DNA of 64,000 nucleotides, taken from the NCBI RefSeq assembly GCF_010686765.1, contig NZ_JAAGWF010000010.1, positions 124,001-188,000 on the forward strand, read 5' to 3'. The stretch is from Geodermatophilus sabuli (GTDB taxonomy: Bacteria > Actinomycetota > Actinomycetes > Mycobacteriales > Geodermatophilaceae). Position numbers and translations under genes: made by a program. Numbering within the stretch: the first letter of the stretch is position 1; each line of letters starts with the position of its first letter. Positions 17,171 through 54,308 of this stretch are shown here, piece by piece. The notes under the pieces are model-generated. The model had not been told where the DNA came from. It did not search any database and saw only the letters and a program-made list of their open reading frames with translations.

Positions 17171-17196
17171 GTCGCTGGTGCTCTAGCGACTACGGT
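17171..17196. promoter_or_regulatory. 20-base inverted-repeat operator with adjacent -10 (leaderless start)
   Basis: GTCGCTG-GTGCTC-TAGCGAC (17171-17190) has matching six-base arms GTCGCT/AGCGAC. TACGGT directly follows at 17191-17196 and is seven bases before the GTG at 17204, so the plus-strand mRNA may be leaderless. One of a set of repeats described in the findings. Confidence 0.6.
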
Positions 17197-17203
17197 CAGC
17201 CGG

Positions 17204-17992
17204 GTGACGGCCGGCCGGGTGGTGTCCCTGTCCGCCGGCACCGTGCTCGACGCGCGACCCGACGACGCCCTCGACGCCGCGGCGGCCGCGGGCTTCGACG
17301 CCTTCGGCACCCGGTGGGACCCCGAGCACGCGATCGGCTCGCTGCGGCGCCGGATCGACGACAGCGGCCTGGCCCTGCTCGACCTGGAGGTGGTGCGGCT
17401 GGGCCCCGGGACGCCGGTCGGGCACCACCGCCCCTGGGTGGACGCCGCCGCGGAGCTCGGCGCCCGCTTCCTGCTGGTGGTGAGCTCGCACGACGACCCC
17501 GCCCGCACGGCCGACGAGCTGGCCACGCTGGCCGGCTGGTGCGCGCCCGCGGGGGTCACCGTGGCGCTGGAGTTCATGCGGTTCACCGCCGTCCCCACCC
17601 TGCACGCCGCCGGCGAGCTGGTGCGGGCCGCCGGCGGCACGGGCCTGACCGTCCTCGTCGACGTCCTGCACCTGCAGCGCGGCGGGGAGACCCCGGCCGA
17701 CCTCACCCGGCCCGGCGCCCCACCGGTCGGCTACCTCCAGCTGTGCGACGCGCCCGCCGACCCGCCCGGCGACCTGGCGGCGCTGGCCGAGGAGGCACGG
17801 CACGGGCGGCTGTTCCCCGGCGACGGCGAGCTGCCGCTGGCCGACGTCCTCGCCGCCCTGCCGGCCGACCTGCCCGTCTGCGTCGAGGTGCAGTCCGACA
17901 CCTGGTCGCGGCAGCTCGACGTGCCCGCGCGGGCGCGGCGGGCGATGGACAGCGTCCGCGGCCTGCTGGGTGCGCCGCACCCGGCGCACTGA
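17204..17992 (+). CDS. sugar phosphate isomerase/epimerase-like TIM-barrel protein
   Basis: A 262-residue protein of the xylose-isomerase-like TIM-barrel group (IolE/IolI-like). Seen are SLSAGTVLDARPDDALDAA (strand 1), VALEFMRF (metal-ligand Glu), VLVDVLHLQRGGE (Asp and His), YLQLCDAP, and the terminal VCVEVQS with a Glu near the last strand. The metal-ligand pattern Glu/Asp/His/Glu seems kept, so it is probably active. The GTG at 17204 is seven bases after a -10-like TACGGT, so no leader is expected. First gene of a three-gene operon with an SDR and a luciferase-like enzyme. Its substrate may be a non-sugar intermediate. Confidence 0.82.
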   Translation: MTAGRVVSLSAGTVLDARPDDALDAAAAAGFDAFGTRWDPEHAIGSLRRRIDDSGLALLDLEVVRLGPGTPVGHHRPWVDAAAELGARFLLVVSSHDDPARTADELATLAGWCAPAGVTVALEFMRFTAVPTLHAAGELVRAAGGTGLTVLVDVLHLQRGGETPADLTRPGAPPVGYLQLCDAPADPPGDLAALAEEARHGRLFPGDGELPLADVLAALPADLPVCVEVQSDTWSRQLDVPARARRAMDSVRGLLGAPHPAH

Positions 17993-18016
17993 CCCGCACG
18001 ACGACGAGGAGGGCAC

Positions 18017-18700
18017 GTGCCTGCAGTCCTGGTGACCGGAGGCGGATCGGGCATCGGCGCGGAGGTCTGCCGGGTGCTCGCTGCCGCGGGCTGGCAGGTG
18101 GCCGCCGCCGACCTGCGGCCCCCGGAGGGCGGGCACGAGCTCGACACCACCGACGAGGCCGGCTGGGAGCGGGTGCTGGACGCCGTCTGGCCGCTGGACG
18201 GGCTGGTCAACTGCGCCGGCATCCGGGACCGGGCGCCGCTCGAGGAGCTGGAGCTGGCGGCGTTCGAGCGGATGATGGCCGTGCACGTCACCGGGTGCTT
18301 CCTCGGCACCCGCGGGGTCGCCCGGCGGTGGCGCACCGAGGAGCGCTCCGGCGCGGTCGTCAACATCTCCTCGGTCACCGCCACCCACGCCGTCGCCGGA
18401 CAGGTCCACTACGTCACCGCCAAGGGCGCGATCGCCGCGCTGACCCGGGCGGCGGCGGTGGAGCTCGGGCCCACGGGCACCCGGGTCAACGCGATCGCGC
18501 CCGGGATCATCCGCACCCCCATGACCGCCGACCGCCTCGGGGACCCGGACCAGACGGCGTGGCTGCTGTCCCGCGTGCCGGCGGGCCGGGTCGGCGAGCC
18601 GGCCGAGATCGCCTCGGCGGTGCAGTTCCTGCTCTCCGACGCGGCGTCCTACGTCAACGGCGTGCTGCTGCCCGTCGACGGCGGCTGGGCGGCGGGCTGA
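18017..18700 (+). CDS. SDR family oxidoreductase
   Basis: A 227-residue short-chain dehydrogenase. The cofactor motif is TGGGSGIG (about 7-14), and the catalytic Ser-Tyr-Lys set is seen in NISSV...VHYVTAKG. The C-terminal end VNGVLLPVDGGWAAG is classical. GAGGAGGG precedes the GTG start. It sits 24 bases after the TIM-barrel gene, and its stop shares one base with the next start (TGATG). It probably oxidises a secondary alcohol in the same pathway. Confidence 0.92.
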   Translation: MPAVLVTGGGSGIGAEVCRVLAAAGWQVAAADLRPPEGGHELDTTDEAGWERVLDAVWPLDGLVNCAGIRDRAPLEELELAAFERMMAVHVTGCFLGTRGVARRWRTEERSGAVVNISSVTATHAVAGQVHYVTAKGAIAALTRAAAVELGPTGTRVNAIAPGIIRTPMTADRLGDPDQTAWLLSRVPAGRVGEPAEIASAVQFLLSDAASYVNGVLLPVDGGWAAG

Positions 18701-19716: not shown

Positions 19717-19719
19717 CCC

Positions 19720-21126
19720 TCAGGCCTTGGACAGCTCGCGCATCTGGTCGTCGGACAGCACGTCGCCCTCCCGGGCCGCCTGGGCCAGGCGGGTGTCCTC
19801 CAGGGCGAAGGCACGGGTGAGCGGGCAGGCGGCCAGGAAGCTCACCTTCTCCCCCGACCGGGGACGCCGCTCGGGCAGCGGCCGGGACAGGTCGATCCGG
19901 CGGCCCTCCTTGACCACCTCCACGATCGCCCCCTCGCGGGTCAGGACGGTGATGTCGGCCAGCGGGTCACCGTCGACCACGAGGACGTCGGCGACGTAGC
20001 CCTCGCGGACCGCGCCGAGGCTGCCCTCCATCTTGATCGCCCAGGCCGCCTGCGAGGTCGCCGCGGTGATCGCCTCCATCGGCGAGAACCCGGCGTACTG
20101 GACGAGCATGTCGAGCTCCCGCGCGTGCCACTCGCCGCACGGGGTGATCGCGAACCCCGTCTCCGAGCCGGTGATGACCCGCACGCCGGCCCGGTGCGCC
20201 TTGTCGATCATGACGCCGGTGACGTCGAGCTCGGCCTTGAAGACGTCGAGCAGCTCGGGGGCGGTGCCGACCTTCTCGCCGTACTCGACGAGGTTGCCCA
20301 GCAGCGTGAACGTCGGGCACAGCGCCGAGCCGTTCTCGACGACCGCCTCGAGCGCCTCGTCGTCCATGTAGGACGAGTGGTAGATCAGGTCCATGCCGGC
20401 CTCGGCCGACTCCTTGGTGCTGATCGAGTTGCGGCAGTGACCCACCACGGGGGTGTTGAGCTCGTGCGCCGCGTCGACGACCGCCTGGATCTCGCGCTTG
20501 TTCCAGACCTTGACCTCCGGCCCCTTCACCGAGGGGATCAGCCCGGTGACCATCACCTTGATCCAGTCGACGCCGTGCTTGATCTGCCGGCGCACCTCAC
20601 GCTGGATGCCGTTGGCGTCGTGGACGACGGTGGCGTAGCCGGTGGTGCCCTCGTCCCTGATCAGCCGCCCGGCGGTGCCGCCCAGCATCGTCATGAGGGC
20701 GTTGCCCCCGGCGCGCATCCGCGGGCCCTCGACGAAGCCGGACTCGATCGCGTCGCGCAGCTCCACGCCGATGTTCCACAGGCAGTCGGCGTCGAGCACG
20801 CTGGTGACGCCGGCCCGCAGCACCTTCTGGGCGTTGTGCGCCGACAGCATCGAGCTGAACGCCTCGGTGCGGTGGAAGAACAGCTCGTCGTTGCCGGTGG
20901 GCTCGCCGAAGGACAGGTGGGTGTGGGCGTCGATCAGCCCCGGCATGACCGTGCGGCCGGTGGCGTCGATCCGGGTCAGGCCGGGGAGGTCCACGGCCTG
21001 CGCCTCGGCGGCCGCACCAAGCGCGGCGATCCGGCCGTCGCGGATGAGCACGGCCTCGCCGGGCCGGGCGTCGGCCCCGGTGCCGTCGACCACCGTGCCG
21101 CCGGTGATGAGGATCGGCTCGGACAT
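19720..21126 (-). CDS. amidohydrolase family protein (imidazolonepropionase/prolidase-like)
   Basis: A 468-residue metal-dependent hydrolase. The HxH metal motif is in MPGLIDAHTHLSFGE; later ligands are His in VVGHCRNS, His in LIYHSSYMDD and Asp/Glu near VITGSETGF. The N- and C-terminal beta-sandwich ends (TGGTVVDGTGA; GYVADVLVVDGDPLADI) are typical of cyclic-amide hydrolases. The extra C-terminal 50 residues (FLAACPLTRAFALED onward) are unusual. It is transcribed alone from a promoter at about 21.2 kb that shares elements with the Liv-operon promoters. A cyclic amide or lactone substrate is possible. Confidence 0.88.
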   Translation of the reverse strand: MSEPILITGGTVVDGTGADARPGEAVLIRDGRIAALGAAAEAQAVDLPGLTRIDATGRTVMPGLIDAHTHLSFGEPTGNDELFFHRTEAFSSMLSAHNAQKVLRAGVTSVLDADCLWNIGVELRDAIESGFVEGPRMRAGGNALMTMLGGTAGRLIRDEGTTGYATVVHDANGIQREVRRQIKHGVDWIKVMVTGLIPSVKGPEVKVWNKREIQAVVDAAHELNTPVVGHCRNSISTKESAEAGMDLIYHSSYMDDEALEAVVENGSALCPTFTLLGNLVEYGEKVGTAPELLDVFKAELDVTGVMIDKAHRAGVRVITGSETGFAITPCGEWHARELDMLVQYAGFSPMEAITAATSQAAWAIKMEGSLGAVREGYVADVLVVDGDPLADITVLTREGAIVEVVKEGRRIDLSRPLPERRPRSGEKVSFLAACPLTRAFALEDTRLAQAAREGDVLSDDQMRELSKA

Positions 21127-21170: not shown

Positions 21171-21239
21171 GTGGCCCGCGTCACGTCGCCGTCGCCCATC
21201 GTCGGCGGGCGTCCCCATAGTGTCAAGCACAGTAACGAC
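21171..21239 (-). promoter_or_regulatory. promoter of the amidohydrolase gene with two operator-like sites
   Basis: On the minus strand: -35 TTGACA (21226-21221), 18 bases, weak -10 ACGATG (21202-21197). A degenerate 20-base repeat (21220-21239, intact half TAACGAC on the plus strand) covers the -35. GTGG-CCCGCG-TCAC (21171-21184, plus strand) is 12 bases past the -10 and is one base from the GTGA-N6-TCAC palindromes of the Liv promoters. Confidence 0.45.
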
Positions 21240-23601: not shown

Positions 23602-24504
23602 TCAGCTGGCCGAGCGGCCCCGGCGCGCGCGCCGGGCGGGGATGCGGTCGCGCCCGCTCTGCTCGGCGGCCTGCAGCGTGGCCGCGGGCAGTCCGCGGTC
23701 GGCGCGCAGGCGGTTCATGTCGGGGTCCTCCTGCCAGAACGCCCGGATCTGCTCGGCGTCGAAGTGGTCGCCCATGAGCTGGATGGCGATGTCGTGCCGG
23801 ATGTACTCGACCGACAGCAGGACGACGGCCGGGTTGTCCGTGTAGACCCCCCAGGCCCCGGTCTCGGTGAAGCCGCCGATCACGGCCTCCTGCCGGTCGC
23901 CGACGACGGTGAGCATCCGGCAGCCGAGGTTCTCCATGACGACCTCGGGCGTGGACAGCTCGTGCTGGTAGGTGCGCCCCACCGGGTCGCCGAGGTCGCC
24001 GAAGGCGATGGAGGTGACCGCCACCGAGCGCGCCTCGGCCGCCGTCACGCTGTCGCGCAGGGCGGCCATCTCCTCGGGCCAGATGGAGAGGAACAGCTCC
24101 CGCCGGGCGCCGGAGACCACGTCGCGGGCCCGGTCGAGCAGGGCCGCGGCGCCGGACAGGTTGTGGATCAGGTGCACGGTGGGCGGCGCGGCGATCGCCG
24201 GCAGCATCGCGTCCAGTGCGGCCAGGGACTCGGAGTAGTCGCGGCCGAGCCGGTTGAGCAACGCCTTCGCCGGCAGGGGCAGGTAGTCCACGGCGTCCCC
24301 GGCGCCCCGCACCTCGAAGGCCGCGCCGCGCGCGACGAGCTTGGCGAGGGTCTCGTACACCGTGCTGCGGGGCACGCCCGACCGCTTGGCCACCTCGTAG
24401 CCGTTGAGCGGCTCCCCCGCGCCGACCAGCGCCAGGTACGTCTTGGCCTCGTAGCCGGACATGCCCAGGTGCTGCAGCCGCTCGATCACGTCTTCGTAGG
24501 TCAC
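23602..24504 (-). CDS. TrmB family transcriptional regulator
   Basis: A 300-residue regulator. The N-terminal winged helix is TrmB-like: DVIERLQHLGMSGYEAKTY, then GYEVAKRSGVPRSTVYETL. A predicted helical linker and a ligand-binding domain follow (ELFLSIWPEEMAALRDSV), with an Arg-rich tail. The GTG at 24504 has GGAGGAGGG upstream and is clearly preferred. The 83 bases between it and the E1-beta gene contain an inverted repeat (24542-24562), consistent with autoregulation. TrmB-family proteins sense sugars or small metabolites; here the target is probably the flanking catabolic genes. Confidence 0.88.
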   Translation of the reverse strand: MTYEDVIERLQHLGMSGYEAKTYLALVGAGEPLNGYEVAKRSGVPRSTVYETLAKLVARGAAFEVRGAGDAVDYLPLPAKALLNRLGRDYSESLAALDAMLPAIAAPPTVHLIHNLSGAAALLDRARDVVSGARRELFLSIWPEEMAALRDSVTAAEARSVAVTSIAFGDLGDPVGRTYQHELSTPEVVMENLGCRMLTVVGDRQEAVIGGFTETGAWGVYTDNPAVVLLSVEYIRHDIAIQLMGDHFDAEQIRAFWQEDPDMNRLRADRGLPAATLQAAEQSGRDRIPARRARRGRSAS

Positions 24505-24541
24505 TGCCCGTACCCCTCCTCCCGGGGTGCCATCGGCACCG

Positions 24542-24562
24542 TCGTGAGCATGCCAGTCACGA
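24542..24562. promoter_or_regulatory. candidate TrmB operator
   Basis: Perfect six-base arms TCGTGA (24542-24547) and TCACGA (24557-24562) are separated by nine bases, 38 bases upstream of the regulator's GTG. It could serve autoregulation. Confidence 0.45.
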
Positions 24563-24587
24563 TCGGCCGCCACCTCGTTCCCATGGG

Positions 24588-25586
24588 TCAGTACCCGAAC
24601 GTGCGGTCGACGGCGTCGAGGACCCGGTCGAGGTCGGGGAGGAAGTCCTCCTCGACCCGGCTCGGGGGGTACGGGACGTCGTAGCCCGTCACCCGCTGCA
24701 CCGGCGCCTCCAGCTCGTAGAAGCAGGCGTCGGCCAGCTCCGCCGCGATCTCCGCCCCGAGCCCGAGCGTCCGCGGCGCCTCGTGGACGACGACCACGCG
24801 CCGGGTGCGGCGGGCGGAGTCGACCAGCGTGGGCAGGTCCAGCGGCGAGAGCGAGCGCAGGTCCACCACCTCCAGGGAGCGTCCCTCCGCCCGTGCCGCC
24901 TCCGCGGCGTCGAGGGCGACCCGGACCATCGCGCCGTGGGCGACCACGGTCGCGTCGGTGCCGGGCCGCACCACCCGCGCCCGGTGCAGCGGCAGGTCGT
25001 CGGCGGCCGGGCCGAGCCGGACCGGGCCCTTCTCCCAGTAGCGGCGCTTGGGCTCGTAGAAGACGACCGGGTCGTCGCTGCGGACGGCCTCCTGGATCAT
25101 CCGGTAGCCGTCGGCCGGCGAGGAGCAGGCGACCACGCGCAGCCCGGCCGTGTGCACGAAGTAGGACTCGTTGGACTCGCTGTGGTGCTCGACGGCGCCG
25201 ATGCCCCCGCCGTACGGGATGCGGATGACCACCGGCATGGCCAGCGTGCCGCCGGAGCGGGTGCGCAGCTTGGCCAGCTGGCTGACCACCTGGTCGAACG
25301 CCGGGTAGACGAACCCGTCGAACTGGATCTCGCACACCGGCCGGTAGCCCCGGACGGCCAGCCCGATCGCGGCGCCGACGATCCCGGACTCGGCCAGCGG
25401 CGTGTCCACGACCCGGTCGCCGCCGAAGTCCTTCTGGAGCCCGTCGGTGACCCGGAAGACGCCGCCGAGCCGCCCGACGTCCTCACCCAGGACCAGCACC
25501 CTCGGATCGTCGTCCATCGCCTGGCGCAGGCCGGCGTTGATCGCCGCGCCCAGCGCCAGGGTCGTCGTCCCGCCCGGTTCGCTCAC
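24588..25586 (-). CDS. 2-oxoacid dehydrogenase E1 component, beta subunit
   Basis: A 332-residue TPP-enzyme beta subunit. Seen are VLVLGEDVGRLGGVFRVTDGL, DTPLAESGIVGAAIGLAVRG (the Glu that activates TPP lies in this segment), and the transketolase C-domain VVVVHEAPRTLGLGAEIAAEL. Its GTG overlaps the alpha-subunit stop (GTGA). No E2 acyltransferase or E3 is nearby, unlike pyruvate or branched-chain complexes, so the pair may use another acceptor or borrow an E2, as acetoin-type enzymes do with their own. The substrate is not fixed. Confidence 0.9.
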   Translation of the reverse strand: MSEPGGTTTLALGAAINAGLRQAMDDDPRVLVLGEDVGRLGGVFRVTDGLQKDFGGDRVVDTPLAESGIVGAAIGLAVRGYRPVCEIQFDGFVYPAFDQVVSQLAKLRTRSGGTLAMPVVIRIPYGGGIGAVEHHSESNESYFVHTAGLRVVACSSPADGYRMIQEAVRSDDPVVFYEPKRRYWEKGPVRLGPAADDLPLHRARVVRPGTDATVVAHGAMVRVALDAAEAARAEGRSLEVVDLRSLSPLDLPTLVDSARRTRRVVVVHEAPRTLGLGAEIAAELADACFYELEAPVQRVTGYDVPYPPSRVEEDFLPDLDRVLDAVDRTFGY

Positions 25587-26686
25587 CCCGGCTCCCGGGG
25601 GCCGGTGAAGGAGGCGAGGTGCGCGGCCAGCTCCGCCTGCTGCCGCGCCATGGCCGGGTGGGGCTCGGCGTAGACGAGGTCGAACACGGCCAGTGGGTCG
25701 GTGTCCGGCAGGGCGCGAGCGCCGGAGCGGATGCCCTCGGCGAGGTCGTCGGCCTCCGCGCCGAGGTCGTCGAACCAGGCGTCCCCGACGCCCTCGGCCC
25801 GCAGGTACCGCTCCACCCGCAGCAGCGGGTCGCGCGCCCGCCACTGGTCCACCTCGGCCGCGTCGCGGTAGCGACTGGGGTCGTCGGAGGTCGTGTGGGC
25901 GGCCATCCGGTAGGTGAAGGCCTCGATCAGCGTGGGCCCGCCGCCGGCCCGGGCCTGCGCCAGCGCGGCGCGGGTGACCGCCAGGACGGCGAGCACGTCG
26001 TTGCCGTCCACCCGCACGCCCGGGAACCCGAAGCCGTGCGCCCGCTGCCACAGCGGGACGCGGGTCTGCCGGCTCAGCGGCTCGGAGATCGCCCACTGGT
26101 TGTTCTGGCAGAAGAAGACGACCGGCGCCGAGGACACCGCGGCGAAGGTGAACGCCTCGGCGACGTCGCCCTGGCTGGTCGCGCCGTCCCCGAAGAACGC
26201 CATCGCGGCGGCGTCGGCGCCGTCGCGCTGGATGCCCATCGCGTAGCCCACCGCGTGCAGCGCCTGCGCCCCGATGATCACGGTGTAGTTGCCCATGCCG
26301 GCGGCCCGCGGGTCCCAGCCGCCGTGGGCGCTGCCGCGCCAGAACCGCAGCATCTGCGTCGGCCGGATGCCGCGGCACCACGCCACCCCGTGCTCGCGGT
26401 AGCTGGTGAAGGCGAAGTCCGCCGGTGCCAGCGCCCGCCCCGCCCCGACCTGTGCGGCCTCCTGGCCGAGGCAGCTGGCCCACAGCCCCAGCTCGCCCTG
26501 CCGCTGCAGCGCGGTGGCCTCGCTGTCGAAGCGGCGCAGCAGCGTCATGTCCCGCAGCAGCCCCTGCACGGTGGGCAGGTCGACGTCCAGGGGGTGCCCG
26601 GGGTCGGCCACCCGCCGGCCTCCGGGGGTGAGCAGCTGGACGCCGGGGTCGTCCTGGCCCGGCGGGTCGATGAGCGGCTGGCTCAT
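25583..26686 (-). CDS. 2-oxoacid dehydrogenase E1 component, alpha subunit
   Basis: A 367-residue TPP-binding subunit. The TPP motif begins FFGDGATSQGDVAEAF and ends FFCQNNQWAIS (GDG...NN). The catalytic-loop end YRMAAHTTSDDPSRYR is also seen, as in E1-alpha of PdhA/BkdA1/AcoA type. It forms a heterotetramer with the beta subunit downstream. Its ATG overlaps the SDR stop by four bases. Upstream lie the SDR and P450, so this is a P450-SDR-E1alpha-E1beta operon; a diketone or 2-oxo acid made by the first two enzymes is a plausible substrate. Confidence 0.9.
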   Translation of the reverse strand: MSQPLIDPPGQDDPGVQLLTPGGRRVADPGHPLDVDLPTVQGLLRDMTLLRRFDSEATALQRQGELGLWASCLGQEAAQVGAGRALAPADFAFTSYREHGVAWCRGIRPTQMLRFWRGSAHGGWDPRAAGMGNYTVIIGAQALHAVGYAMGIQRDGADAAAMAFFGDGATSQGDVAEAFTFAAVSSAPVVFFCQNNQWAISEPLSRQTRVPLWQRAHGFGFPGVRVDGNDVLAVLAVTRAALAQARAGGGPTLIEAFTYRMAAHTTSDDPSRYRDAAEVDQWRARDPLLRVERYLRAEGVGDAWFDDLGAEADDLAEGIRSGARALPDTDPLAVFDLVYAEPHPAMARQQAELAAHLASFTGPREPG

Positions 26687-28759: not shown

Positions 28760-28787
28760 GGCGTCATACGCCTAACGACGCTAGTGT
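28760..28787. promoter_or_regulatory. 20-base inverted-repeat operator between P450 and amidohydrolase genes
   Basis: GGCGTCA-TACGCC-TAACGAC (28760-28779), intact half TAACGAC, other half one base off. TAGTGT at 28782-28787 is a -10-like hexamer for the plus-strand amidohydrolase gene. The P450 gene diverges from here. Confidence 0.5.
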
Positions 28788-32499: not shown

Positions 32500-32519
32500 G
32501 TAGTTAGTCTTCTCACGTC
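32500..32519. promoter_or_regulatory. degenerate 20-base operator between P450 and ThuA genes
   Basis: GTAGTTA-GTCTTC-TCACGTC resembles the 54289 copy (13 of 20 bases). TAGTCT at 32505-32510 is a -10-like hexamer for the plus-strand ThuA gene, which starts at 32535. Confidence 0.35.
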
Positions 32520-43252: not shown

Positions 43253-43272
43253 GTCGTTGGTGTGGTAACGAC
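43253..43272. promoter_or_regulatory. 20-base inverted-repeat operator
   Basis: GTCGTTG-GTGTGG-TAACGAC, with perfect six-base arms GTCGTT/AACGAC. It lies between the divergent SDR operon (start 43164) and the epoxide-hydrolase-like gene (start 43308). I cannot make out convincing -35 and -10 elements here. Confidence 0.6.
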
Positions 43273-43307: not shown

Positions 43308-44189
43308 ATGGACGACGTCGACCCGGCAGCCGCCCTCGCCGGACTCCGCGACCGGGCCGCGATCGCCGACGTGCTGGCCGCGTTCTGCGAGCGGGTCGAC
43401 GAGTACGACATCGCCGGCCTGGACACGGTCTTCACCGCCGACTGCGCCACCGACTACGGGCCCGGCCGGGGCGGCCCCGTCTCGGGGCTGGCGGCCGTCC
43501 AGGCCCGGATCGGCCGGGGGCAGGCCGAGTTCCGCCGCACCCACCACCAGCTGGGCCAGAGCCGGGTGCGCCTCGACGGCGACACCGCCGAGGCCGCCAC
43601 CTACGTGACCGCCACCCACGAGCACCGGGACGGCGCGCGCTCGCGGGTGCACCTGCGCTACCTCGACCGGCTGCGGCGGACCCCCGCCGGGTGGCGGATC
43701 GCCGCGCGCACGGTGGCCGCGACGGTCGTCGAGGGGATGCCGGGCACCGCCTGGGTCTGGGTGCCGCGGGGCGAGCCGGGACCCGCCGGCTCGGTCGCCG
43801 CCGCCGTCCGGCGCTTCCTGGACGCGGTGGAGAGCCGGGACCCCGACGCGGTCGCCGCCTGCTTCACGGTCGACGCCCGCTACGCCAACGTGCCGCACCC
43901 GCCCGCCGTGGGCCCGGCCGCCATCCGGTCGGTCTTCGCCCGCATCCTGTCGCGGTGCGAGCGGGTCCGCTGGGACGTGGTCAGCACCGCCGCCGACGGG
44001 GACCGCGCCTGGCTGGAGCGGGTCGACCGGTTCTGGATCGGCGGAAGGGAGTACGCCATCGAGTGCAACGGCGTCTACACCGTGGACCCGGCGAGCGGGC
44101 TGCTGGCCGAGGTGCGCGACTACGTCGACCTCGCCACCTGGCGCGAGCGGCTCGGCGACGTGCTGGACCGGCCGGACGCGGCGCCGTGA
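43308..44189 (+). CDS. SnoaL-like domain fused to limonene-1,2-epoxide hydrolase-like domain
   Basis: A 293-residue protein with two NTF2-like folds. Residues 1-140 are SnoaL_4-like (RAAIADVLAAFCERVDEYD). Residues 163-285 resemble limonene-1,2-epoxide hydrolase; that enzyme's five catalytic residues have counterparts here: Tyr192 and Asn194 (Y-A-N), Arg238 and Asp240 (R-V-D), and Asp271 (V-R-D-Y). An epoxide-opening reaction is therefore a strong prediction. Usual hydrolases of this type are single-domain and about 150 residues. It overlaps the next luciferase-like gene by four bases and diverges from the carveol-type SDR. The role of the N-terminal domain is unknown. Confidence 0.85.
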   Translation: MDDVDPAAALAGLRDRAAIADVLAAFCERVDEYDIAGLDTVFTADCATDYGPGRGGPVSGLAAVQARIGRGQAEFRRTHHQLGQSRVRLDGDTAEAATYVTATHEHRDGARSRVHLRYLDRLRRTPAGWRIAARTVAATVVEGMPGTAWVWVPRGEPGPAGSVAAAVRRFLDAVESRDPDAVAACFTVDARYANVPHPPAVGPAAIRSVFARILSRCERVRWDVVSTAADGDRAWLERVDRFWIGGREYAIECNGVYTVDPASGLLAEVRDYVDLATWRERLGDVLDRPDAAP

Positions 44190-45133
44190 GCATCCCCTTC
44201 CGGTTCGGCGTCCTGGCGATGCGGCCGGCCGCGACGCGCACCGAGTGGCTGGACCGCGCGCGCCGTGCCGAGGACGACGGCTTCGGCACCTTCCAGGTGA
44301 GCGACCACTTCGACCGGTCCCCCGCCTCGCCGCTGCTCACGCTGGCCGCCGTCGCCCAGGCCACGTCCTCCATCCGGCTGGGCACGCTGGTGCTGGACAA
44401 CGACTTCCGGCACCCCGCGGTGCTGGGCAAGGAGCTCGCGACCCTCGACGTGCTGTGCGACGGGCGGCTGGAGGTCGGCATCGGCGCCGGCTGGATGCCC
44501 GCTGACTACGCCGTCTCCGGCCTGCCGTTCGACCCGCCGGGTCTGCGCGTGGACCGCCTGGCGGAGACCCTCGCCGTGCTCGACGCCGTCCTGGGGAGCC
44601 CGGAGCCGGTCACCTGGACCGGCGAGCACACCCGCGTCACCGGTCTGCGCAGCGTCCCCGCGCCGCGTCAGCAGCCCCGCCCCCCACTGCTGGTCGGCGG
44701 CGCCCGCCCGCGGGTGCTGGGGCTGGCCGGCCGGCTGGCGGACGTGGTCAGCGTGAACATCGACGTCCGGGAGGGGCGGGTGGGCCCGCAGGCCACCCGC
44801 TCGGCCCTCGCCGACGCCGTCGACGAGAAGGTGGGCTGGGTCCGCGCGGCCGCCGCGGGGCGGCCGGTCGCCCCCGAGCTGCACCTGGTGGCCTACTGGG
44901 CCGAGGTGACCGAGCGACCCGAGGAGGCGGCGGCGCGGCGGATCGCGGCGGCCGGCCTCGACCTGGCCCCGCGGGAGCTGCTCGCCTCCCCGCACTGCCT
45001 GATCGGCCCCCGCGCGCAGGTCACCGAGCGGCTGCTGCAGGCCCGCGAGCGGTGGGGCTTCTCCTACGTGACCGTCTACGACTCCGACGCGGCGTCCCTG
45101 ACCCCGGTCGTGGCCGGGCTCGCCGGGACCTGA
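44186..45133 (+). CDS. LLM class, probably F420-dependent oxidoreductase
   Basis: A 315-residue luciferase-like protein of the kind found in F420-making actinobacteria (TIGR03621-like): FRFGVLAMRPAATRTEWLD at the start, DDGFGTFQVSDHFDR, IRLGTLVLDNDFRHPAVLGKE split by family-typical residues, and VGIGAGWMPADYAVSGL. The GTG overlaps the previous stop (GTGA). Its last 58 bases overlap a convergent hypothetical gene. Partner enzyme of the epoxide hydrolase; whether it makes or reduces a substrate is undecided. Confidence 0.88.
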   Translation: MSIPFRFGVLAMRPAATRTEWLDRARRAEDDGFGTFQVSDHFDRSPASPLLTLAAVAQATSSIRLGTLVLDNDFRHPAVLGKELATLDVLCDGRLEVGIGAGWMPADYAVSGLPFDPPGLRVDRLAETLAVLDAVLGSPEPVTWTGEHTRVTGLRSVPAPRQQPRPPLLVGGARPRVLGLAGRLADVVSVNIDVREGRVGPQATRSALADAVDEKVGWVRAAAAGRPVAPELHLVAYWAEVTERPEEAAARRIAAAGLDLAPRELLASPHCLIGPRAQVTERLLQARERWGFSYVTVYDSDAASLTPVVAGLAGT

Positions 45134-45696
45134 GCGAGCTCGCCCCCGCCGGCCACCGTCCACGTGCAGTGCCCCGACGGGTCGGCCGGCGGGTCCACCC
45201 GCCACCGCTCGCCGCCGTGGTGGGAGATCGTGGCGATGCAGCGGGCGCAGTACCGGGGCCGGCCACCCGGGACCCCCGGCACCTCGCCGTCGGCGACGGT
45301 CGGCGTCTCCGGGTGCTCCCGCCAGTACCGCTGGCCACTGCCGCACCGGTGCCGGAACACCGTGCCGCCGTCCTCCGCCGTGACCGTGCCGGTCGATCCG
45401 TGCGCACGCAGCAGCGCGGCGATCTCCGCCGGGTCGATCCTCGCGTCGACGAGCGTGTCGAGCGACACCCGGGTGCCCGCCAGCAGCCGGTCGACCACCT
45501 CGCGCACCGGCCGCCCGTCGTCGGCGGCCACGTCGAGCAGCGCGGCGATCAGGCCGACCAGCCGGTCGTGCAGCGTCCGCCACCGGGCGTGCTCGGCCTC
45601 CACCATCGCCAGCACGTCGGGGGACACCGGCGGGTCGAGCCGTCGCAGCCGGTCGGGCAGCGGCTCCAGGTGCAGCTCGCCCGCGGGATCGGGCAC
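45076..45696 (-). CDS. hypothetical protein with Cys/His cluster, end of Liv operon
   Basis: I do not recognise this 206-residue protein. Residues 1-110 are alpha-helical (MVEAEHARWRTLHDRLVGLI, LAGTRVSLDTLVDARIDP). The C-terminal 80 residues carry HRCGSG, then RYCARCIATISHH (C-x2-C with His-His) and GHCTWTV, possibly a metal site. Start is the GTG at 45696, five bases after the livF stop. It is the last gene of the Liv operon and its 3' end overlaps the convergent luciferase-like gene by 58 bases. A role with the importer, or in processing its substrate, can only be guessed. Confidence 0.7.
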   Translation of the reverse strand: MPDPAGELHLEPLPDRLRRLDPPVSPDVLAMVEAEHARWRTLHDRLVGLIAALLDVAADDGRPVREVVDRLLAGTRVSLDTLVDARIDPAEIAALLRAHGSTGTVTAEDGGTVFRHRCGSGQRYWREHPETPTVADGEVPGVPGGRPRYCARCIATISHHGGERWRVDPPADPSGHCTWTVAGGGELAQVPASPATTGVRDAASES

Positions 45697-47181: not shown

Positions 47182-48244
47182 GGCGCACCGCTCCCTTCCG
47201 GGCGGCCGAGCGGCCGGTGAGTCTGCCCACCAGGCGGGAGTCGCGGACCTCACGGCCCAGCGACACCAGCCCGCCGCGCAGGACGGTGATCGCGAGCATG
47301 AGCGCCAGCCCGTAGGCGATCGCCTGGAAGTCGCCGAGGTCCTGGAAGAGCTCGACCAGCACCACCGCGAAGGCGGCACCGACGATCGGCCCGTAGAGGG
47401 ACCCGGCACCCCCGACGAAGACCATCACGAGGAACGGGACCAGCAGGTTGAAGTCGAACATCGCCGGGAAGATGAACGTCTGCAGCTGGGCGTAGAGGGC
47501 GCCGGCCACCGCGGCGATGCCCCCGGAGATGCCGAAGGCCACGAGCCGGTAGCGCAGCGTCGAGACGCCGAGCGAGCCGGTCAGCGAGCCCAGGTGGCGC
47601 ACCGTCTGCAGCGTCCGGCCGAACCGTCCGTACAGCGCCCGCCGGGCGAGGAGGAACGCGACCAGGGCGATGGTCGCGGTCAGGAAGTACGTCGACGCGC
47701 TGCCCGTGATGCCGGGGATCGTCCAGACGTCGACGGCCTTGCCGGCACCGCCGCCGGTGAGGCCGTCGGCGGCGGTGAGCGCCTCGATGATGACGAACCC
47801 GAAGGCCAGCGTGGCGATGGCGAGGAAGAAGCCGGTGAGCCGGATGGCCGGGAAGCCGATGACCACGGCCATGAGCGCCGCCAGCACCGCGACCAGCGGC
47901 AGGGTGACCAGGAAGGGCATCCCGCGTTCGACCGCGATCGTGCTGCCGAAGGCGCCGACGGCGAACAGCGCGGCGTGCGCCAGCCCGATCTGCCCCGACC
48001 AGCCGATGAGGATGTCGAAGCCGAGCGTGGCGATCGCGTAGACCAGCGTCAGGTTGGCCACGAACAGCACGTAGCTGTTGACGACGAACGGCAGCGCGTA
48101 GAGCGCGACCACCACGACGGCGAGGACGGCGGGGGTGAGCAGCGGGCGCCGCCGGCGGGGCGCCTCGACGGGGGTGGCGACGGTCGCCTCGATGCCCGCC
48201 TCGTCGGCCAGCTCGGCCTCGAGGCGGGTGGACAGCTCAGACAT
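47174..48244 (-). CDS. livM: branched-chain amino acid-type ABC transporter permease LivM
   Basis: A 356-residue permease with about 10 transmembrane helices. Conserved segments are LGFDILIGWSGQIGLAHAALFAVGA (split by family residues) and the cytoplasmic EAA-like loop GRFGRTLQTVRHLGSLTGSLG. N-terminal 45 residues are polar. It overlaps livH by eight bases. Confidence 0.93.
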   Translation of the reverse strand: MSELSTRLEAELADEAGIEATVATPVEAPRRRRPLLTPAVLAVVVVALYALPFVVNSYVLFVANLTLVYAIATLGFDILIGWSGQIGLAHAALFAVGAFGSTIAVERGMPFLVTLPLVAVLAALMAVVIGFPAIRLTGFFLAIATLAFGFVIIEALTAADGLTGGGAGKAVDVWTIPGITGSASTYFLTATIALVAFLLARRALYGRFGRTLQTVRHLGSLTGSLGVSTLRYRLVAFGISGGIAAVAGALYAQLQTFIFPAMFDFNLLVPFLVMVFVGGAGSLYGPIVGAAFAVVLVELFQDLGDFQAIAYGLALMLAITVLRGGLVSLGREVRDSRLVGRLTGRSAARKGAVRRA

Positions 48245-49097
48245 CGCGCAACCTCAATCCCGCGGTGAAACCGGACGGACGGGCCAGCAGCACGAGGACG
48301 ACGGCCAGCAGGGCGACCGCGAACTCGATGCTGGTCGAGATGTAGAGGCCGGCCAGCGACTGGATGAGGCCCAGGGCGAGTCCGCCGAAGAAGGTCCCGA
48401 TGAGCGAGACGAAGCCGCCCATCGTGGCGGCCACGAACCCGTACACGATCAGCGAGGACGCCGAGTGCGTGGAGACCAGCGTGGACTGCGCCTGCAGCAT
48501 CACCGCCAGCGTCGCGATGGCGCCGCCGAGCGCCCAGGCCATGGCCGACACCCGGCCCACCCGGACGCCGATCAGCCGCGCCGTCGCGCGGTTCTCCGCG
48601 ACCGCCCGCATCTGCGCCCCCAGCGAGGTGCGGAAGAAGGACGTGATCGCGATCGCCCCCGCGGCGCCGAGGACGATCGTCACGATCTGCGCGACGCTCA
48701 CCTCGACCCCGCCGATGCTCACGAACGACCCCGACCACGGGGCGTCGAAGCGGCGCGCCTCCTGCCCCCAGATCCGGCCGATCAGCGCGTTGAGCGCCAG
48801 CGACAGCCCGATGGTCATGAGCAGCAGCGGGAAGTGCCCGTGCCCGGCGAGGCGGCGCATCAGCCCGACGTCGATGAGCACCGCCACCACGACCCCGGCC
48901 AGCAGGGTGACGACGACGGCCACCCAGAAGTTCGCGCCGGCCGCCGCGAGCGAGGTCCCGACGTAGGTCGCGACGAGCCCGATCTCGGCCATCGCGAAGT
49001 TCGGCACGTCCGCCGCCTTCATGACGACGACGATGGCCAGCCCCAGCAGGCTGAACCAGCTGCCCGCCTCGAGGCCGCTCAGTATCGACTGGAGCAT
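48237..49097 (-). CDS. livH: branched-chain amino acid-type ABC transporter permease LivH
   Basis: A 286-residue permease with about eight helices: MLQSILSGLEAGSWFSLLGL, FAMAEIGLVATYVG, and MRAVAENRATARLIGVRVGR, the usual EAA-like loop. The ATG at 49097 has AGGAAGG upstream. First gene of livHMGF plus a hypothetical gene. The predicted transcription start is about 190 bases upstream, so the leader is long. Confidence 0.94.
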   Translation of the reverse strand: MLQSILSGLEAGSWFSLLGLAIVVVMKAADVPNFAMAEIGLVATYVGTSLAAAGANFWVAVVVTLLAGVVVAVLIDVGLMRRLAGHGHFPLLLMTIGLSLALNALIGRIWGQEARRFDAPWSGSFVSIGGVEVSVAQIVTIVLGAAGAIAITSFFRTSLGAQMRAVAENRATARLIGVRVGRVSAMAWALGGAIATLAVMLQAQSTLVSTHSASSLIVYGFVAATMGGFVSLIGTFFGGLALGLIQSLAGLYISTSIEFAVALLAVVLVLLARPSGFTAGLRLRDV

Positions 49098-49271: not shown

Positions 49272-49339
49272 GTGATCCACGTCACGTCTGTCGTCGCATG
49301 GTAGGGAGGCGGCGCAGGCGTCGTCAATGAGCTAGCGAC
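49272..49339 (-). promoter_or_regulatory. promoter of the livH operon with two operators
   Basis: On the minus strand: -35 TTGACG (49327-49322), 18 bases, -10 TACCAT (49303-49298). The 20-base repeat GTCGTCA-ATGAGC-TAGCGAC (49320-49339, plus strand) covers the -35. Palindrome GTGA-TCCACG-TCAC (49272-49285) is 12 bases past the -10, near the expected start. The leader from about 49291 to 49098 is roughly 190 bases, and I see no gene in it. Confidence 0.65.
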
Positions 49340-49389: not shown

Positions 49390-50607
49390 TCACTCGGGGG
49401 CCTGGAAGTCCTGCAGCAGCTGCCACGCGCCGTTGGTGTAGACGGCGAGGCCGGCGGACTGGACGCAGGTGTGGCCCTCGGGGAGCGGCCCGCACTCGAT
49501 GTCGGGCACGGTGCCCAGCACGACCGGGTCGTCGGTGAGCGCCTCGGCCGTGGCGTGGAAGTTCTCGTAGGAGAGGTCGTCGCCCATCCGGTCCACCAGC
49601 TCGGCGAACGCGAGCAGGTAGCTGTAGGTCTGCAGCGAGAACCCGCTGGTGCCCTGCTCGCCGTCGTACTGCTCGGCCAGCTCCCGCCACTCGGTGACCT
49701 CGGGGGCGTCGGCCGTCGTCAGGTTCACCTGGAGGCCGCCGATGAAGCCCTCGGCCGCCGCACCCGCGGGGCCCACGGCGCTCGGGCCGCCGGTGCCCGC
49801 ACCGCCCTGGTCGGCGAAGACCGGCACGTTCACGCCGCGGCTGCGCAGCTGCTGGAGGACCAGGGCGACCTGCGTGTTGTCGGTCGCGAGCAGGACGGCG
49901 TCCGGGTTGGCCGCGACGACGTTGTTGACCGCCGACGAGACGTCCGTGCCGCCGGTCTGGGTGACCTCCTGCGCGACGAGCTCCATCTCCGGGTGCTTGG
50001 GGATCTGCTGTTCCAGCGCCTCCTCGGCCGACAGGCCCAGGTCGTTGTCCTGCTGGATGACCGCCAGCCGGGTCGCCCCCTGCGCGGCGAAGTAGTCGAT
50101 CGCCACCTGGTCCTGCGTCGTCCGGGTCGGGCCGAGGAGGTAGACCTCCTCCTGCTGCGGGTCCGACGGCGAGACCGGGCCCCACACCGGCGTCCCGTTC
50201 TCGGCGATGAACGGCCAGGCGCCGGGCAGGCCCTGCGAGCCGGCCGGCGCGACGAGTGCGTAGACGTTGTCCTGCGAGACGAGGCGGCGGACGTTCGTCA
50301 CCACCCGGTCGGGGGTGAAGCCGTCGTCGAGCAGGACGAGCTCCACCTGCCGCCCGCCGATGCCGCCGTCGGCGTTGATCTTGTCCGCGGCGATCCGCAG
50401 CCCGGCCTCCAGGCCCTGGCCGGCGACCGCCGCCGTCCCCGTCAGGGGCAGGGTCGCGCCGAGGGTGATCGTGTCGTCGCTGATGCCCGGTGGCGTCTCG
50501 CCACCGCCGCCGCCGCCTCCCCCGTCGTCGCTGGCGACGTTGCCGCACGCCGTCGCGGTGAGCAGGGCCAGCGCCGCCGCGCTGAGGAGTCGGGTCCGAC
50601 GGGACAT
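49390..50607 (-). CDS. ABC transporter substrate-binding protein, Liv type (lipoprotein)
   Basis: A 405-residue periplasmic-binding-type lipoprotein. The signal MSRRTRLLSAAALALLTA is followed by the lipobox TAC-G, so Cys24 or so would be acylated, then a Gly-rich linker. The domain begins ITLGATLPLTGTAAVAGQG, the Peripla_BP_6 pattern of Liv-type receptors, with YFAAQGATRLAVI and FADQGGAGTGGPS later. GGAGG precedes the ATG at 50607. It is transcribed from its own promoter, closely similar to that of livH, and should deliver substrate to the LivHMGF importer. Confidence 0.94.
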   Translation of the reverse strand: MSRRTRLLSAAALALLTATACGNVASDDGGGGGGGGETPPGISDDTITLGATLPLTGTAAVAGQGLEAGLRIAADKINADGGIGGRQVELVLLDDGFTPDRVVTNVRRLVSQDNVYALVAPAGSQGLPGAWPFIAENGTPVWGPVSPSDPQQEEVYLLGPTRTTQDQVAIDYFAAQGATRLAVIQQDNDLGLSAEEALEQQIPKHPEMELVAQEVTQTGGTDVSSAVNNVVAANPDAVLLATDNTQVALVLQQLRSRGVNVPVFADQGGAGTGGPSAVGPAGAAAEGFIGGLQVNLTTADAPEVTEWRELAEQYDGEQGTSGFSLQTYSYLLAFAELVDRMGDDLSYENFHATAEALTDDPVVLGTVPDIECGPLPEGHTCVQSAGLAVYTNGAWQLLQDFQAPE

Positions 50608-50632: not shown

Positions 50633-50698
50633 GTGATCGCCGTCACAGCTCGAGGCAGGATAGGAGCGCGCCGATTCCGTGGTCAATGAACTAGCGAC
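50633..50698 (-). promoter_or_regulatory. promoter of the Liv substrate-binding protein gene with two operators
   Basis: On the minus strand: -35 TTGACC (50686-50681), 18 bases, -10 TATCCT (50662-50657). The 20-base repeat GTGGTCA-ATGAAC-TAGCGAC (50679-50698, plus strand) covers the -35. Palindrome GTGA-TCGCCG-TCAC (50633-50646) is ten bases past the -10. This is in the 328-base gap between the binding protein and amidohydrolase genes. Confidence 0.65.
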
Positions 50699-50815: not shown

Positions 50816-50887
50816 GTCGTCAGCCCCCTGACGACGGGTGCTTGACCGGGTATCCACCTCCTCCTACGGTCGGGTGACCGGGGTCAC
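50816..50887 (+). promoter_or_regulatory. promoter of the amidohydrolase gene with two operators
   Basis: On the plus strand: -35 TTGACC (50842-50847), 17 bases, -10 TACGGT (50865-50870). The 20-base repeat GTCGTCA-GCCCCC-TGACGAC (50816-50835) is a perfect inverted repeat; counting flanking C and G, ten-base arms. It lies six bases before the -35. Palindrome GTGA-CCGGGG-TCAC (50874-50887) begins three bases after the -10. Rest of the 50608-50935 gap holds nothing else that I recognise. Confidence 0.65.
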
Positions 50888-50935: not shown

Positions 50936-52192
50936 ATGACCACACTCGAAGGCCTGTCCATCGGGGCGTCCCGGAGTTCGACGGTCACCTTCCTGCCCGA
51001 ACCCGACCCCCGGCCCCGCCGCTACACCATCGTCTCGGTCGACGACCACCTCGTGGAACCGCCGGACACCTTCGAGGGGCGGCTGCCGCAGCGCTTCGTC
51101 GAGCAGGGCCCGCGGGTCGTCGAGCAGGACGACGGAGGCCAGGTCTGGGTCATGGAGGACCGGGTCATCCCGAACGCCGGCACCAACGCCGTCGCCGGGC
51201 GCCCGCCGTCGGAGTACTCGATGGAGCCGACGCGGTTCGAGCACATGCGCCGCGGCTCCTGGGACCCGCACGCGCGGCTGGCCGACATGGACGTCGCCGG
51301 GGTGTGGGCCTCGCTGTGCTTCCCCTCGATGGTCGCCGGGTTCGCCGGGGCCCGGTTCGCCGAGACCAAGGACCCCGAGCTCGGGCTGGCCGCGATGCGC
51401 GCCTGGAACGACTGGCACCTGGAGTCCTGGTGCGGCGCCGACCCCGAGCGGTTCATCCCCCAGCAGATCACCTGGCTGCGCGATCCCGAGGTCGCCGCTG
51501 CGGAGGTCCGCCGCAACGCCGAGCGCGGGTTCCGGTCGCTGTCGTTCCCGGAGATCCCCGAGCGGCTCCGGCTGCCCAGCATCCACACCGGCTACTGGGA
51601 CCCGGTGCTGCGCGCCTGCGAGGAGACCGACACGACGCTGTCGCTGCACGTGGGTTCCGCGTCCGCGCTGGTCGGCGGTTCCTCGGACGCGCCGCCCGAG
51701 GTGACCACGTCCCTGTTCTTCGTCGGCTCGATCATCACGACGGCCGACTGGCTGTTCTCCAAGGCGGCCCTGCGCTTCCCCGGGCTGCGGATCGCCATCT
51801 CCGAGGGCGGCATCGGCTGGGTGCCCTCGCTGCTCGACCGGGTGGAGCACTGCTTCCGCTACCGCGACTTCACCGGGGGGTGGACCGACGAGGAGATGCA
51901 CCCCAACGACGTGCTGCGGCGCAACTTCTGGTTCTGCGCCCTCGACGACGCGGCGGGCTTCGAGATGCTCGAGCGCATCGGTGAGGACCGCGTCACCGTG
52001 GAGTGCGACTTCCCGCACGCCGACTCCACCTGGCCCGACACCCAGGAGTACATGCACCGGCAGCTGGGCTTCCTGCCCGAGCCGGTCATCGAGAAGCTCA
52101 CCTGGCGCAACGCCTGCGAGCTCTACCGGTTCGACCTGGCCGAGCGGGCCGCCTCGCGCGCCTGGCACCGGGAGGTCGCGGCACCGCAGTGA
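50936..52192 (+). CDS. amidohydrolase_2 family protein
   Basis: A 418-residue TIM-barrel metalloenzyme. The N-terminal metal motif is changed: the family's DxHxH is IVSVDDHLVEPP here, as in a group of actinobacterial amidohydrolase_2 proteins. Further positions are LSLHVGSAS (His), RIAISEGGIGW (Glu instead of His) and VECDFPHADSTWPD (Asp). The barrel architecture of decarboxylases and hydrolases is kept. GGAGGAG precedes the ATG. It is divergent from the Liv binding protein gene and shares the twin-operator arrangement, so it may act on the imported compound. Confidence 0.86.
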   Translation: MTTLEGLSIGASRSSTVTFLPEPDPRPRRYTIVSVDDHLVEPPDTFEGRLPQRFVEQGPRVVEQDDGGQVWVMEDRVIPNAGTNAVAGRPPSEYSMEPTRFEHMRRGSWDPHARLADMDVAGVWASLCFPSMVAGFAGARFAETKDPELGLAAMRAWNDWHLESWCGADPERFIPQQITWLRDPEVAAAEVRRNAERGFRSLSFPEIPERLRLPSIHTGYWDPVLRACEETDTTLSLHVGSASALVGGSSDAPPEVTTSLFFVGSIITTADWLFSKAALRFPGLRIAISEGGIGWVPSLLDRVEHCFRYRDFTGGWTDEEMHPNDVLRRNFWFCALDDAAGFEMLERIGEDRVTVECDFPHADSTWPDTQEYMHRQLGFLPEPVIEKLTWRNACELYRFDLAERAASRAWHREVAAPQ

Positions 52193-52204: not shown

Positions 52205-52232
52205 GGCGGGGCGGCGGACCGGCCGCCCCGCC
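52205..52232. terminator. bidirectional hairpin terminator
   Basis: Arms GGCGGGGCGG (52205-52214) and CCGCCCCGCC (52223-52232) match perfectly around the self-complementary loop CGGACCGG, between convergent stops. Confidence 0.65.
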
Positions 52233-52240
52233 GCCCGCGG

Positions 52241-53425: not shown

Positions 53426-53460
53426 GTGCCCGCGTGCCGCCGGGTCCGGGTGGAGCCGGG

Positions 53461-54216
53461 TCAGTCGCGGGCCAGCGCCGCGAACAGATCAGGGTCGCTG
53501 CGCAGCAGTCGCCGGTAGTTGGCCAGCCACATCTGCTCGCGGAAGCCGTACTTCAGGTAGGCGTTGCGGTAGCTGCGCGCGGTGTGGTCGTCCAGGGGCT
53601 TGCCGCCGACGGCCATCGCCGCCAGCTGGTAGCCGGCGCACAGTTCCATGAGCAGGGCCTCGATGGTCGTGTGCTCGAGGGTGTCGCCGACGTGCAGGGA
53701 ACCGTGGTGCCCCATGAGCAGGGCGCGGCGCCCACCGAGGGCGCGCGCCATCATCTCGCCCTCCTCGCTGGGCACGAGGTCGGGGTCGTCCTTCCAGGCC
53801 ACGACCTCGTCGAGGAACAGCGCCGCGTAGTCGTAGTAGACGCCGAAGGGCACGTCGGTCGTCGACAGCACCGCCATGTTCCTCGCGTGGGTGTGGATCA
53901 CGCAGTTGACGTCCGGGCGGGCCTGGTAGATCGACGCGTGGAAGGTGATCCCGACCGACGCCGGCAGCGTGCCCGCCTCGCGGACCTGCATGTCGAAGCC
54001 GACCTTGCTGACGTGCTCGGGCAGCGTCTCGTCGAAGTACTGGAAGGGCGTCACGAGGAACGCGTCCTCCCCCGGCACCCGCAGGCTCACGTGGCCGCCG
54101 ACCTGGCTGTCGAGACCCTCGCGGTGCAGGATCCGGCGCGCCGCGGCGATCTGGAAGCGCGGGTCGCTCTCCGAGACCACGCGGCGGGTGGCGGCGACGT
54201 CCTCGACCAGGCTCAT
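53461..54216 (-). CDS. class II aldolase/adducin family protein
   Basis: A 251-residue zinc-dependent aldolase-like protein: ILHREGLDSQVGGHVSLRVPG at the phosphate-loop region, the zinc ligands HTHARN (His-x-His) and the later HHGSLHVG. The Glu that acts as base would lie near EVVAWKDD; I cannot fix it. Family members cleave sugar phosphates or act as decarboxylases. GGAGGAG precedes the ATG. It diverges from the PanE-like operon over a promoter that carries the 20-base repeat. Confidence 0.88.
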   Translation of the reverse strand: MSLVEDVAATRRVVSESDPRFQIAAARRILHREGLDSQVGGHVSLRVPGEDAFLVTPFQYFDETLPEHVSKVGFDMQVREAGTLPASVGITFHASIYQARPDVNCVIHTHARNMAVLSTTDVPFGVYYDYAALFLDEVVAWKDDPDLVPSEEGEMMARALGGRRALLMGHHGSLHVGDTLEHTTIEALLMELCAGYQLAAMAVGGKPLDDHTARSYRNAYLKYGFREQMWLANYRRLLRSDPDLFAALARD

Positions 54217-54266
54217 CAGGGCTCCTCCGCGGCTGCCGATCGGTCGCCGGCACGACCACTGCCCGG

Positions 54267-54308
54267 AGTGTAGAAGGTCACAGTTTTCGTCGCTAGTGTC
54301 TTCACTAC
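54267..54308. promoter_or_regulatory. promoters and 20-base operator between aldolase and PanE-like genes
   Basis: GTCGCTA-GTGTCT-TCACTAC (54289-54308), left half intact. For the aldolase gene (minus) there is -10 TACACT at 54272-54267, 16 bases from the repeat as in the Liv promoters. For the PanE-like gene (plus) TAGTGT at 54294-54299 may be the -10. Confidence 0.5.

Follow-up and report, generated by a model that had tools for sequence, protein, structure and literature searches.

In the 64,000-nucleotide stretch of Geodermatophilus sabuli DNA analysed here (contig NZ_JAAGWF010000010.1, positions 124,001 to 188,000; hereafter the window), a genuine 20-bp symmetric inverted repeat with the consensus GTCGTYAG-N4-CTRACGAC recurs in the intergenic regions of a catabolic region. 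Comparison across genomes makes it very likely that this repeat is the operator of a TrmB-family protein encoded at 23602..24504 on the minus strand, which would bind as a dimer, repress uptake and oxidation genes and be released by a compound of the pathway; the binder, considered by itself, is very probably TrmB. The regulon and its operator are new, but the protein family is known and the system is not novel in kind. On a broader scale, the evidence inclines, if only slightly, toward a bacterial TrmB clade with one operator code (roughly GTNGTYA-N6-TRACNAC) that would be common to Actinomycetota and Deinococcota, relaxed in Bacillota, and would govern an undescribed actinobacterial multi-oxygenase pathway with two cytochrome P450s, a molybdenum hydroxylase, luciferase-like monooxygenases, short-chain dehydrogenases/reductases (SDRs) and an ATP-binding cassette (ABC) importer. 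If true, the scattered operons of such a pathway can be assembled with the motif as a guide. With a candidate binder named, a consensus defined and target promoters listed, the regulon becomes directly testable.

The link between the motif and TrmB can be seen in the distribution of sites across genomes. A matrix built from seven window sites only was applied to 15 stretches of 12 other genomes that encode a TrmB homologue of at least 41% identity, wherein 20.9 kb of intergenic DNA hold 35 sites of at least 13 bits and 232.8 kb of coding DNA hold 3 (34 versus 4 if, in stretch L131, the called gene overlying trmB is kept instead of being replaced by the trmB coordinates). This corresponds to 1.67 versus 0.013 sites per kb, a ratio of about 130-fold, far from the equal density that the initial annotation had named as a sign against a shared regulator. 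At least one intergenic site is present in 14 of these 15 stretches and in 11 of the 12 genomes, that of L105 being without, and Pseudonocardia dioxanivorans, with two trmB loci, has intergenic sites at both. TrmB itself was recovered in 14 of 396 genomes of the phylum at 1e-15 (own genome included) and, at 1e-12, in one of 36 genomes of one order and 13 of 397 of another. Around more distant TrmB homologues (29–38% identity), an intergenic site of at least 13 bits occurs in 5 of 15 stretches and none in the other 10, some of which show repeats of another kind ahead of trmB.

Conversely, a matrix made from the sites of other genomes gives 16.9–24.3 bits to eight intergenic copies in the window, whereas the maximum within window genes is 9.5 bits; the non-coding DNA in question amounts to 5.38 kb of 64 kb, in a window of 74.7% GC, with genes taken from a codon-bias caller (61 window genes, the final two doubtful). 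The copies, symmetric and listed without strand, are mostly set between divergent genes: 17171..17190 (16.9 bits) between a major facilitator superfamily transporter (15866-17077, -) and a TIM-barrel (triosephosphate isomerase-like barrel) gene (17219-17992, +); 28760..28779 (21.1 bits) between a P450 (27497-28717, -) and an amidohydrolase (28864-29874, +); 32500..32519 (24.3 bits) between a second P450 (31234-32457, -) and a ThuA-like gene (32535-33257, +); 43253..43272 (21.2 bits) between an SDR (42322-43164, -) and a SnoaL-like gene (43308-44189, +); and 54289..54308 (20.6 bits) between a class II aldolase (53461-54216, -) and a ketopantoate-reductase-like gene (54339-55274, +). The remaining three lie at 49320..49339 (20.9 bits), upstream of an ABC permease gene (48237-49097, -), at 50679..50698 (20.4 bits), upstream of an ABC substrate-binding protein (49390-50607, -), and at 50816..50835 (21.1 bits), upstream of an amidohydrolase (50936-52192, +), the last being a perfect match to the consensus. 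Seven of these had been described in the initial annotation under the pattern GTCGYYA-N6-TRRCGAC, to which they show 0–2 mismatches; each is indeed intergenic by the gene calls, and the likeness of the 49320 and 50679 copies at 19 of 21 bases is correct. The copy at 32500, previously called weak, turns out to be the best in the window by the matrix from other genomes. That at 21220..21239, upstream of the amidohydrolase at 19720-21126 (-), is weak by its sequence score as had been said (10.0 bits), but orthologues of its gene are preceded by sites; it contains a TTGACA hexamer whose paired -10 is poor by promoter prediction. The half-site proposed at 11511 finds no support, scoring less than 9 bits. 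A weak and possibly autoregulatory copy upstream of trmB, overlooked earlier, lies at 24541..24560; it scores 9.9 and 10.8 bits and is centred 47 bp ahead of the start of trmB.

The motif precedes orthologous genes in other genera, as a regulatory role had led the initial annotation to expect. In Nonomuraea, sites stand upstream of the orthologues of the substrate-binding protein (L099 4882, 24.8 bits), the TIM-barrel gene (L099 6224, 13.8 bits) and the second P450 (L099 9534, 15.5 bits), and in a further stretch before those of ThuA (L054 8488, 16.5 bits), the amidohydrolase at 28864 (L054 6072, 22.8 bits) and, weakly, the amidohydrolase at 19720 (L054 11197, 11.6 bits). In Pseudonocardia, orthologues of the last gene and of the first P450 are preceded by sites at L056 417 (16.3 bits) and L056 9926 (14.0 bits), respectively. 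Further counterparts are found at L100 3996 for the 17171 copy, L100 9566 for the 49320 copy, L162 804 for the 50679 copy and L144 5824 for the 43253 copy, the last flanked by orthologues of the same gene pair, while orthologues of both genes flanking the 54289 copy have upstream sites in L100. In Pseudonocardia parietis the cluster genes occupy two loci separated by about 3 Mb, with sites in both, namely between the permease and the ketopantoate-reductase-like gene and before the aldolase, TIM-barrel gene, P450, SnoaL-like gene and others. Since gene order is shuffled, the sites are conserved with the genes and not as one block of DNA. The earlier proposal of one regulator for a large regulon (about 37 kb here, about 40 kb as first put) is thus well supported: the motif stands before orthologues even where the pathway is split, and some motif matches led to further operons of the pathway.

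Some of the sites lie directly before trmB. Among 16 homologues of at least 40% identity, seven (L104, L131, L132, L134, L136, L137 and L165) have a site of at least 13 bits within 250 bp upstream of trmB. For homologues below 40%, such sites precede 5 of 17 trmB genes as against 6 of 221 other genes in the same loci (Fisher p 3.6e-4); the figure becomes 4 of 15 (p 0.0018) on removing two Bacillus-type plasmid loci that lack control genes, 3 of 14 (p 0.012) if two 87%-identical homologues are also counted once, and 2 of 13 versus 6 of 221 (p 0.066) without L115, L166 and L167 and with L108/L109 counted once, the scores at the AT-rich upstreams of L115, L166 and L167 being inflated because the matrix background is high-GC. 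The most telling single case is a plasmid of Thermus thermophilus, a member of another phylum, which carries a trmB of 41% identity followed by genes for E1 alpha and beta; a 20.4-bit site starts 24 bp ahead of its start codon, and the window trmB has the same neighbours. In a fair share of its relatives, TrmB probably governs its own transcription as well. More generally, trmB lies beside 2-oxoacid dehydrogenase E1 genes, or no more than about 8 kb from them, in the window (23602-26686), L104, L106, L136 and L165, the Thermus plasmid included. The upstream regions of distant trmB genes (L107, L108, L109, L110, L113, L114 and L115) carry repeats such as TACT-N2-AGTA or TAGTAACT...AGTAGTCACTA, recalling the archaeal TACT-N3-AGTA; by eye, TACT-N2-AGTA falls within a repeat before the own gene in L107-L109. 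Such repeats may, as a lead only, link the archaeal and present operator types.

The placement of the sites relative to promoters bears on how the regulator would act. Among 51 sites in 91 site-gene arrangements, TAnnnT occurs exactly at +36 from the site start, i.e., 16 bases past the site, in 9 of 86, as against 14 occurrences in total at 56 other offsets from 24 to 80. The set includes orthologous promoters and does not represent nine independent events; the hexamer is likewise found at +36 in two of 11 arrangements with no gene start ahead, and it is frequent at offset 5, within the site (17 of 91), where it is partly the motif itself. As the -10 starts 16 bases past the site, one half-site sits on the -35, and the downstream half-site in the nine cases reads TTGACG or TTGACC, a -35, in seven and CTAGCG in two. 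In the window, the 49320 promoter combines a -35 TTGACG inside the site with a -10 TACCAT starting 16 bp beyond it, and the 50679 promoter a -35 TTGACC inside the site with TATCCT at the same distance; at 54289 the -10 TACACT also starts 16 bp beyond the site. The covering of the -35 at the first two and the shared spacing at the third had all been correctly noted before. For 17171 and 43253 the best predicted promoter is one in which the site overlaps the -10 or falls between the -35 and the -10.

These arrangements can be accommodated in a mechanism wherein a TrmB dimer would bind each copy with one half-site per winged helix. In one promoter type the downstream half-site would itself serve as the -35 (TTGACG or TTGACC), whereas elsewhere the site would lie between the -35 and -10 or over the -10; in either case bound TrmB would exclude RNA polymerase, acting as a repressor of uptake and oxidation genes, and its release would follow when the C-terminal domain senses a substrate or intermediate of the pathway. 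Because the sites lie at places where RNA polymerase would be blocked, repression relieved by a pathway compound is favoured with reasonable, though by no means full, confidence. Its main rival, a clearly less likely one, is that TrmB binds the sites but mainly activates: a site on the -35 could also serve an activator, the protein would be centred near -40 of the predicted start sites, the class II activator place, in the nine arrangements whose -10 begins exactly 16 bp beyond the site, and in archaea the TrmB family comprises repressors, activators and members that do both (PMC4158304). Nevertheless, the near-consensus -35 in seven of these nine should need no activator, and the positions predicted for the site at 17171 and 43253, within the spacer or across the -10, together with the Thermus site, which by eye lies just downstream of a TTGACG/TACGCT promoter-like pair, favour repression.

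Several observations weigh against a TrmB-bound operator, either on the side of the regulator or on that of the motif. A site within 250 bp is lacking at nine of the 16 trmB genes of at least 40% identity (L054, L056, L105, L133, L135, L138, L162, L163 and L164), and the window's own trmB has a weak one. Two trmB loci of at least 41% identity, L105 (45%) and L164 (51%, the second P. parietis copy), have no intergenic site, and L057 carries the P450 cluster without intergenic sites, yet its genome encodes a 46% TrmB elsewhere. The reciprocal matrix test is not fully independent, the other-genome sites having been chosen via the window matrix. Strong matches also occur in coding DNA, with the other-genome matrix in L007 (21.2 bits) and with the window matrix in L147 (20.3 bits) and L060 (19.0 bits), and given these the matrix is not perfectly specific. 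The pattern GTCGYTA-N6-TARCGAC, at up to two mismatches, finds 16 places in the genome, 7 of them in the window, as against 23 for its backwards control, and 28 versus 43 in the Nonomuraea genome and 27 versus 55 in the Pseudonocardia genome. A whole-genome search with a sequence-only profile, built from 33 of the 35 other-genome sites (two L101 sites excluded), returned 50816 alone at E<=10 (E 3.07) among the 150 of 877 candidates scored, so that single sites without context lack genome-wide significance. That search is near-empty because 20 bases carry too little information, and patterns, matrices and context were therefore used.

A reading in which another regulator, encoded elsewhere, binds the sites and TrmB is a mere cargo gene of the pathway draws on the trmB genes that lack an adjoining site. 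It is made improbable by the sites directly before trmB at loci where few other genes of the window set are seen (L104, L131, L136 and the Thermus plasmid), and by the P450-cluster stretches L055, L058 and L059, which have no intergenic sites and whose genomes have no TrmB at E<=1e-8. In all, four P450-cluster stretches without a nearby trmB have no intergenic site in 4.4 kb, while the genomes of L060 and L057 share TrmB coordinates with G829 and G638 and are thus not clean controls. The initial annotation had offered the two locally encoded regulators, PucR and TrmB, as candidates, of which TrmB follows the motif and PucR does not. The PucR-family protein (14298..15815, +; PF07905 and PF13556) is encoded about 1.4 kb from the 17171 site, but 7 of the 10 other genomes examined lack a counterpart at E<=1e-20 (one of the seven, G309, being itself without the motif), its orthologue was not found in the Nonomuraea and Pseudonocardia cluster stretches, and where present it shows 32–55% identity, the P. 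parietis copy lying over 1 Mb away from either motif locus; it is rejected as the binder, a role it is most unlikely to have. Chance palindromes in high-GC DNA, or unrelated promoter elements, are hardly credible as an account of the repeats in view of the intergenic density and the conservation before orthologous genes, even though loose patterns match often in such a genome, mostly in genes among the places viewed, and no more than backwards controls.

The operator reading thus draws its force from where the matches lie: loose matches show no genome-wide excess, the signal is their location, and context is needed. In the whole-genome scan suggested earlier, the initial pattern at up to one mismatch occurs at 34 places in the 4.79-Mb genome (backwards control 10), six of them in the window as against about 0.45 expected by length; loose patterns are no commoner than their backwards controls. 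At up to three mismatches the initial pattern gives 70 matches in the window versus 37.1 +/- 6.3 in 100 shuffles, a weak count on its own because many of these fall in coding DNA. The two patterns together yield 32 distinct places outside the window, of which 16 were viewed in 3-kb loci, 15 being within genes. The consensus at up to two mismatches, among the matches listed, occurs at 12 places in the own genome (4 in the window) versus 3 for the backwards control, and forward matches exceed the control in eight of nine whole genomes, the exception being G829 (4 versus 12). Of five consensus matches outside known stretches, chosen by eye, three lie upstream of pathway operons new to the set: one encodes an ABC transporter (G755), one comprises the orthologues of the 42322/43308 pair (G829) and one is a molybdenum hydroxylase operon (G427). 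The other two are intergenic beside a distant SDR in P. parietis (L145) and inside a gene (L147). The latter, at L147 9161, is a perfect inverted repeat of the motif within an ABC transporter-like gene.

The proposed binder, of 300 amino acids, matches PF01978 over residues 10-67 at 59.4 bits (cut-off 25.6), with 60.6 and 59.7 bits in the L054 and L056 orthologues. Its closest solved structure by sequence is TrmB of Pyrococcus furiosus (3qph, E 7.6e-05), of which Tyr50, reported as important for DNA binding (PMC4158304), aligns with Tyr50 of the window protein, a residue invariant in three orthologues, the position of Asp51 being Glu51 here. The predicted structure (three sequences; mean predicted local distance difference test score, pLDDT, 58.6) has a helix at 91-104 after the winged helix-turn-helix, the model being too weak to judge a coiled-coil dimerisation helix. 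The C-terminal effector domain PF11495 is matched below its cut-off of 22.2 bits by the window protein (20.1 bits, over the first part alone, profile positions 7-95 of 233) and by that of L054 (20.2 bits), whereas the P. parietis orthologue passes it at 27.8 bits. The NCBIfam equivalog cut-offs are missed (TrmBL1, 41.7 bits versus 650; TrmB, 35.1 versus 600), and by these scores the protein is a family member equivalent to neither archaeal TrmB nor TrmBL1. A palindromic operator in the promoters of the regulon, a trait of the TrmB family, is predicted here by comparative genomics.

A parallel might be struck with TrmB, TrmBL1 and Tgr of Pyrococcus and Thermococcus, with which the present system has in common the winged-helix family PF01978, palindromic promoter operators and a regulator encoded with transporter genes. 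It differs in that the window regulon comprises oxygenases and oxidoreductases, not sugar operons, and the promoters are bacterial; moreover, GTCGTYAG-N4-CTRACGAC is unlike the archaeal operators TACT-N3-AGTA and TATCAC-N5-GTGATA (PMC4158304). OxsR of Haloferax volcanii likewise has a TrmB-family DNA-binding domain and a motif derived from bound regions, but, unlike the window TrmB, is a single-domain redox sensor with the motif CGGnCGnGCG (PMC9426492). TrmB regulators make up about 12% of archaeal versus 0.5% of bacterial transcription factors (PMC9426492). They have been described mainly in archaea and for sugars. In Bacillus, YrhO is a TrmB-like regulator with a predicted regulon, a name absent from the papers listed in the literature search. 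No operator for an actinobacterial TrmB was found in the open-access literature, as judged from titles and the starts of abstracts, which is no proof of absence. PucR-family regulators, with one member in the window, offer no comparable association with the motif.

Turning to the genes of the proposed regulon, a Pfam scan of 40 window proteins outlines a catabolic region with two P450s, a ferredoxin, several short-chain dehydrogenases, luciferase-like monooxygenases, a three-subunit molybdenum hydroxylase, amidohydrolases, the alpha and beta subunits of a 2-oxoacid dehydrogenase E1, a ThuA-like gene, a branched-chain amino acid-type ABC importer and a class II aldolase; the regulators among the scanned proteins are the PucR and TrmB-family members. 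In 25 genomes of the same genus, the best match to the substrate-binding protein of the cluster, among the matches listed, has an E-value of 4.0e-28 at 28% identity (5.0e-266 to itself), and judged by this protein alone the cluster looks accessory. Same-genus footprinting having failed, distant orthologues were therefore compared. A contig scan with the P450 at 27497-28717 gave 15 relatives, and many cluster orthologues are found in Nonomuraea cavernae (L054) and Pseudonocardia parietis (L056), whose TrmB proteins are 60% and 54% identical, respectively, to that of the window. Orthologues of the cluster thus occur in Nonomuraea, Pseudonocardia and uncultured bacteria, while apparently absent from the 25 same-genus genomes, a pattern for which horizontal spread is a possible explanation. 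For the P450 at 31234-32457, no solved structure matches at E<=1e-20. A 206-residue protein (45076-45696, -) with no Pfam or NCBIfam match at 1e-5 keeps company with the genes of the ABC transporter in Nonomuraea and in two species of Pseudonocardia (58–66% identity). A much larger protein of 1155–1195 residues, encoded at L134 5607-9074, L137 10321-13908 and L099 9688-13188 and 51–63% identical among the three genomes, is without counterpart among the window genes; its start recalls indolepyruvate ferredoxin oxidoreductase, another 2-oxoacid enzyme, and the operator stands at its promoter in L134 and L137.

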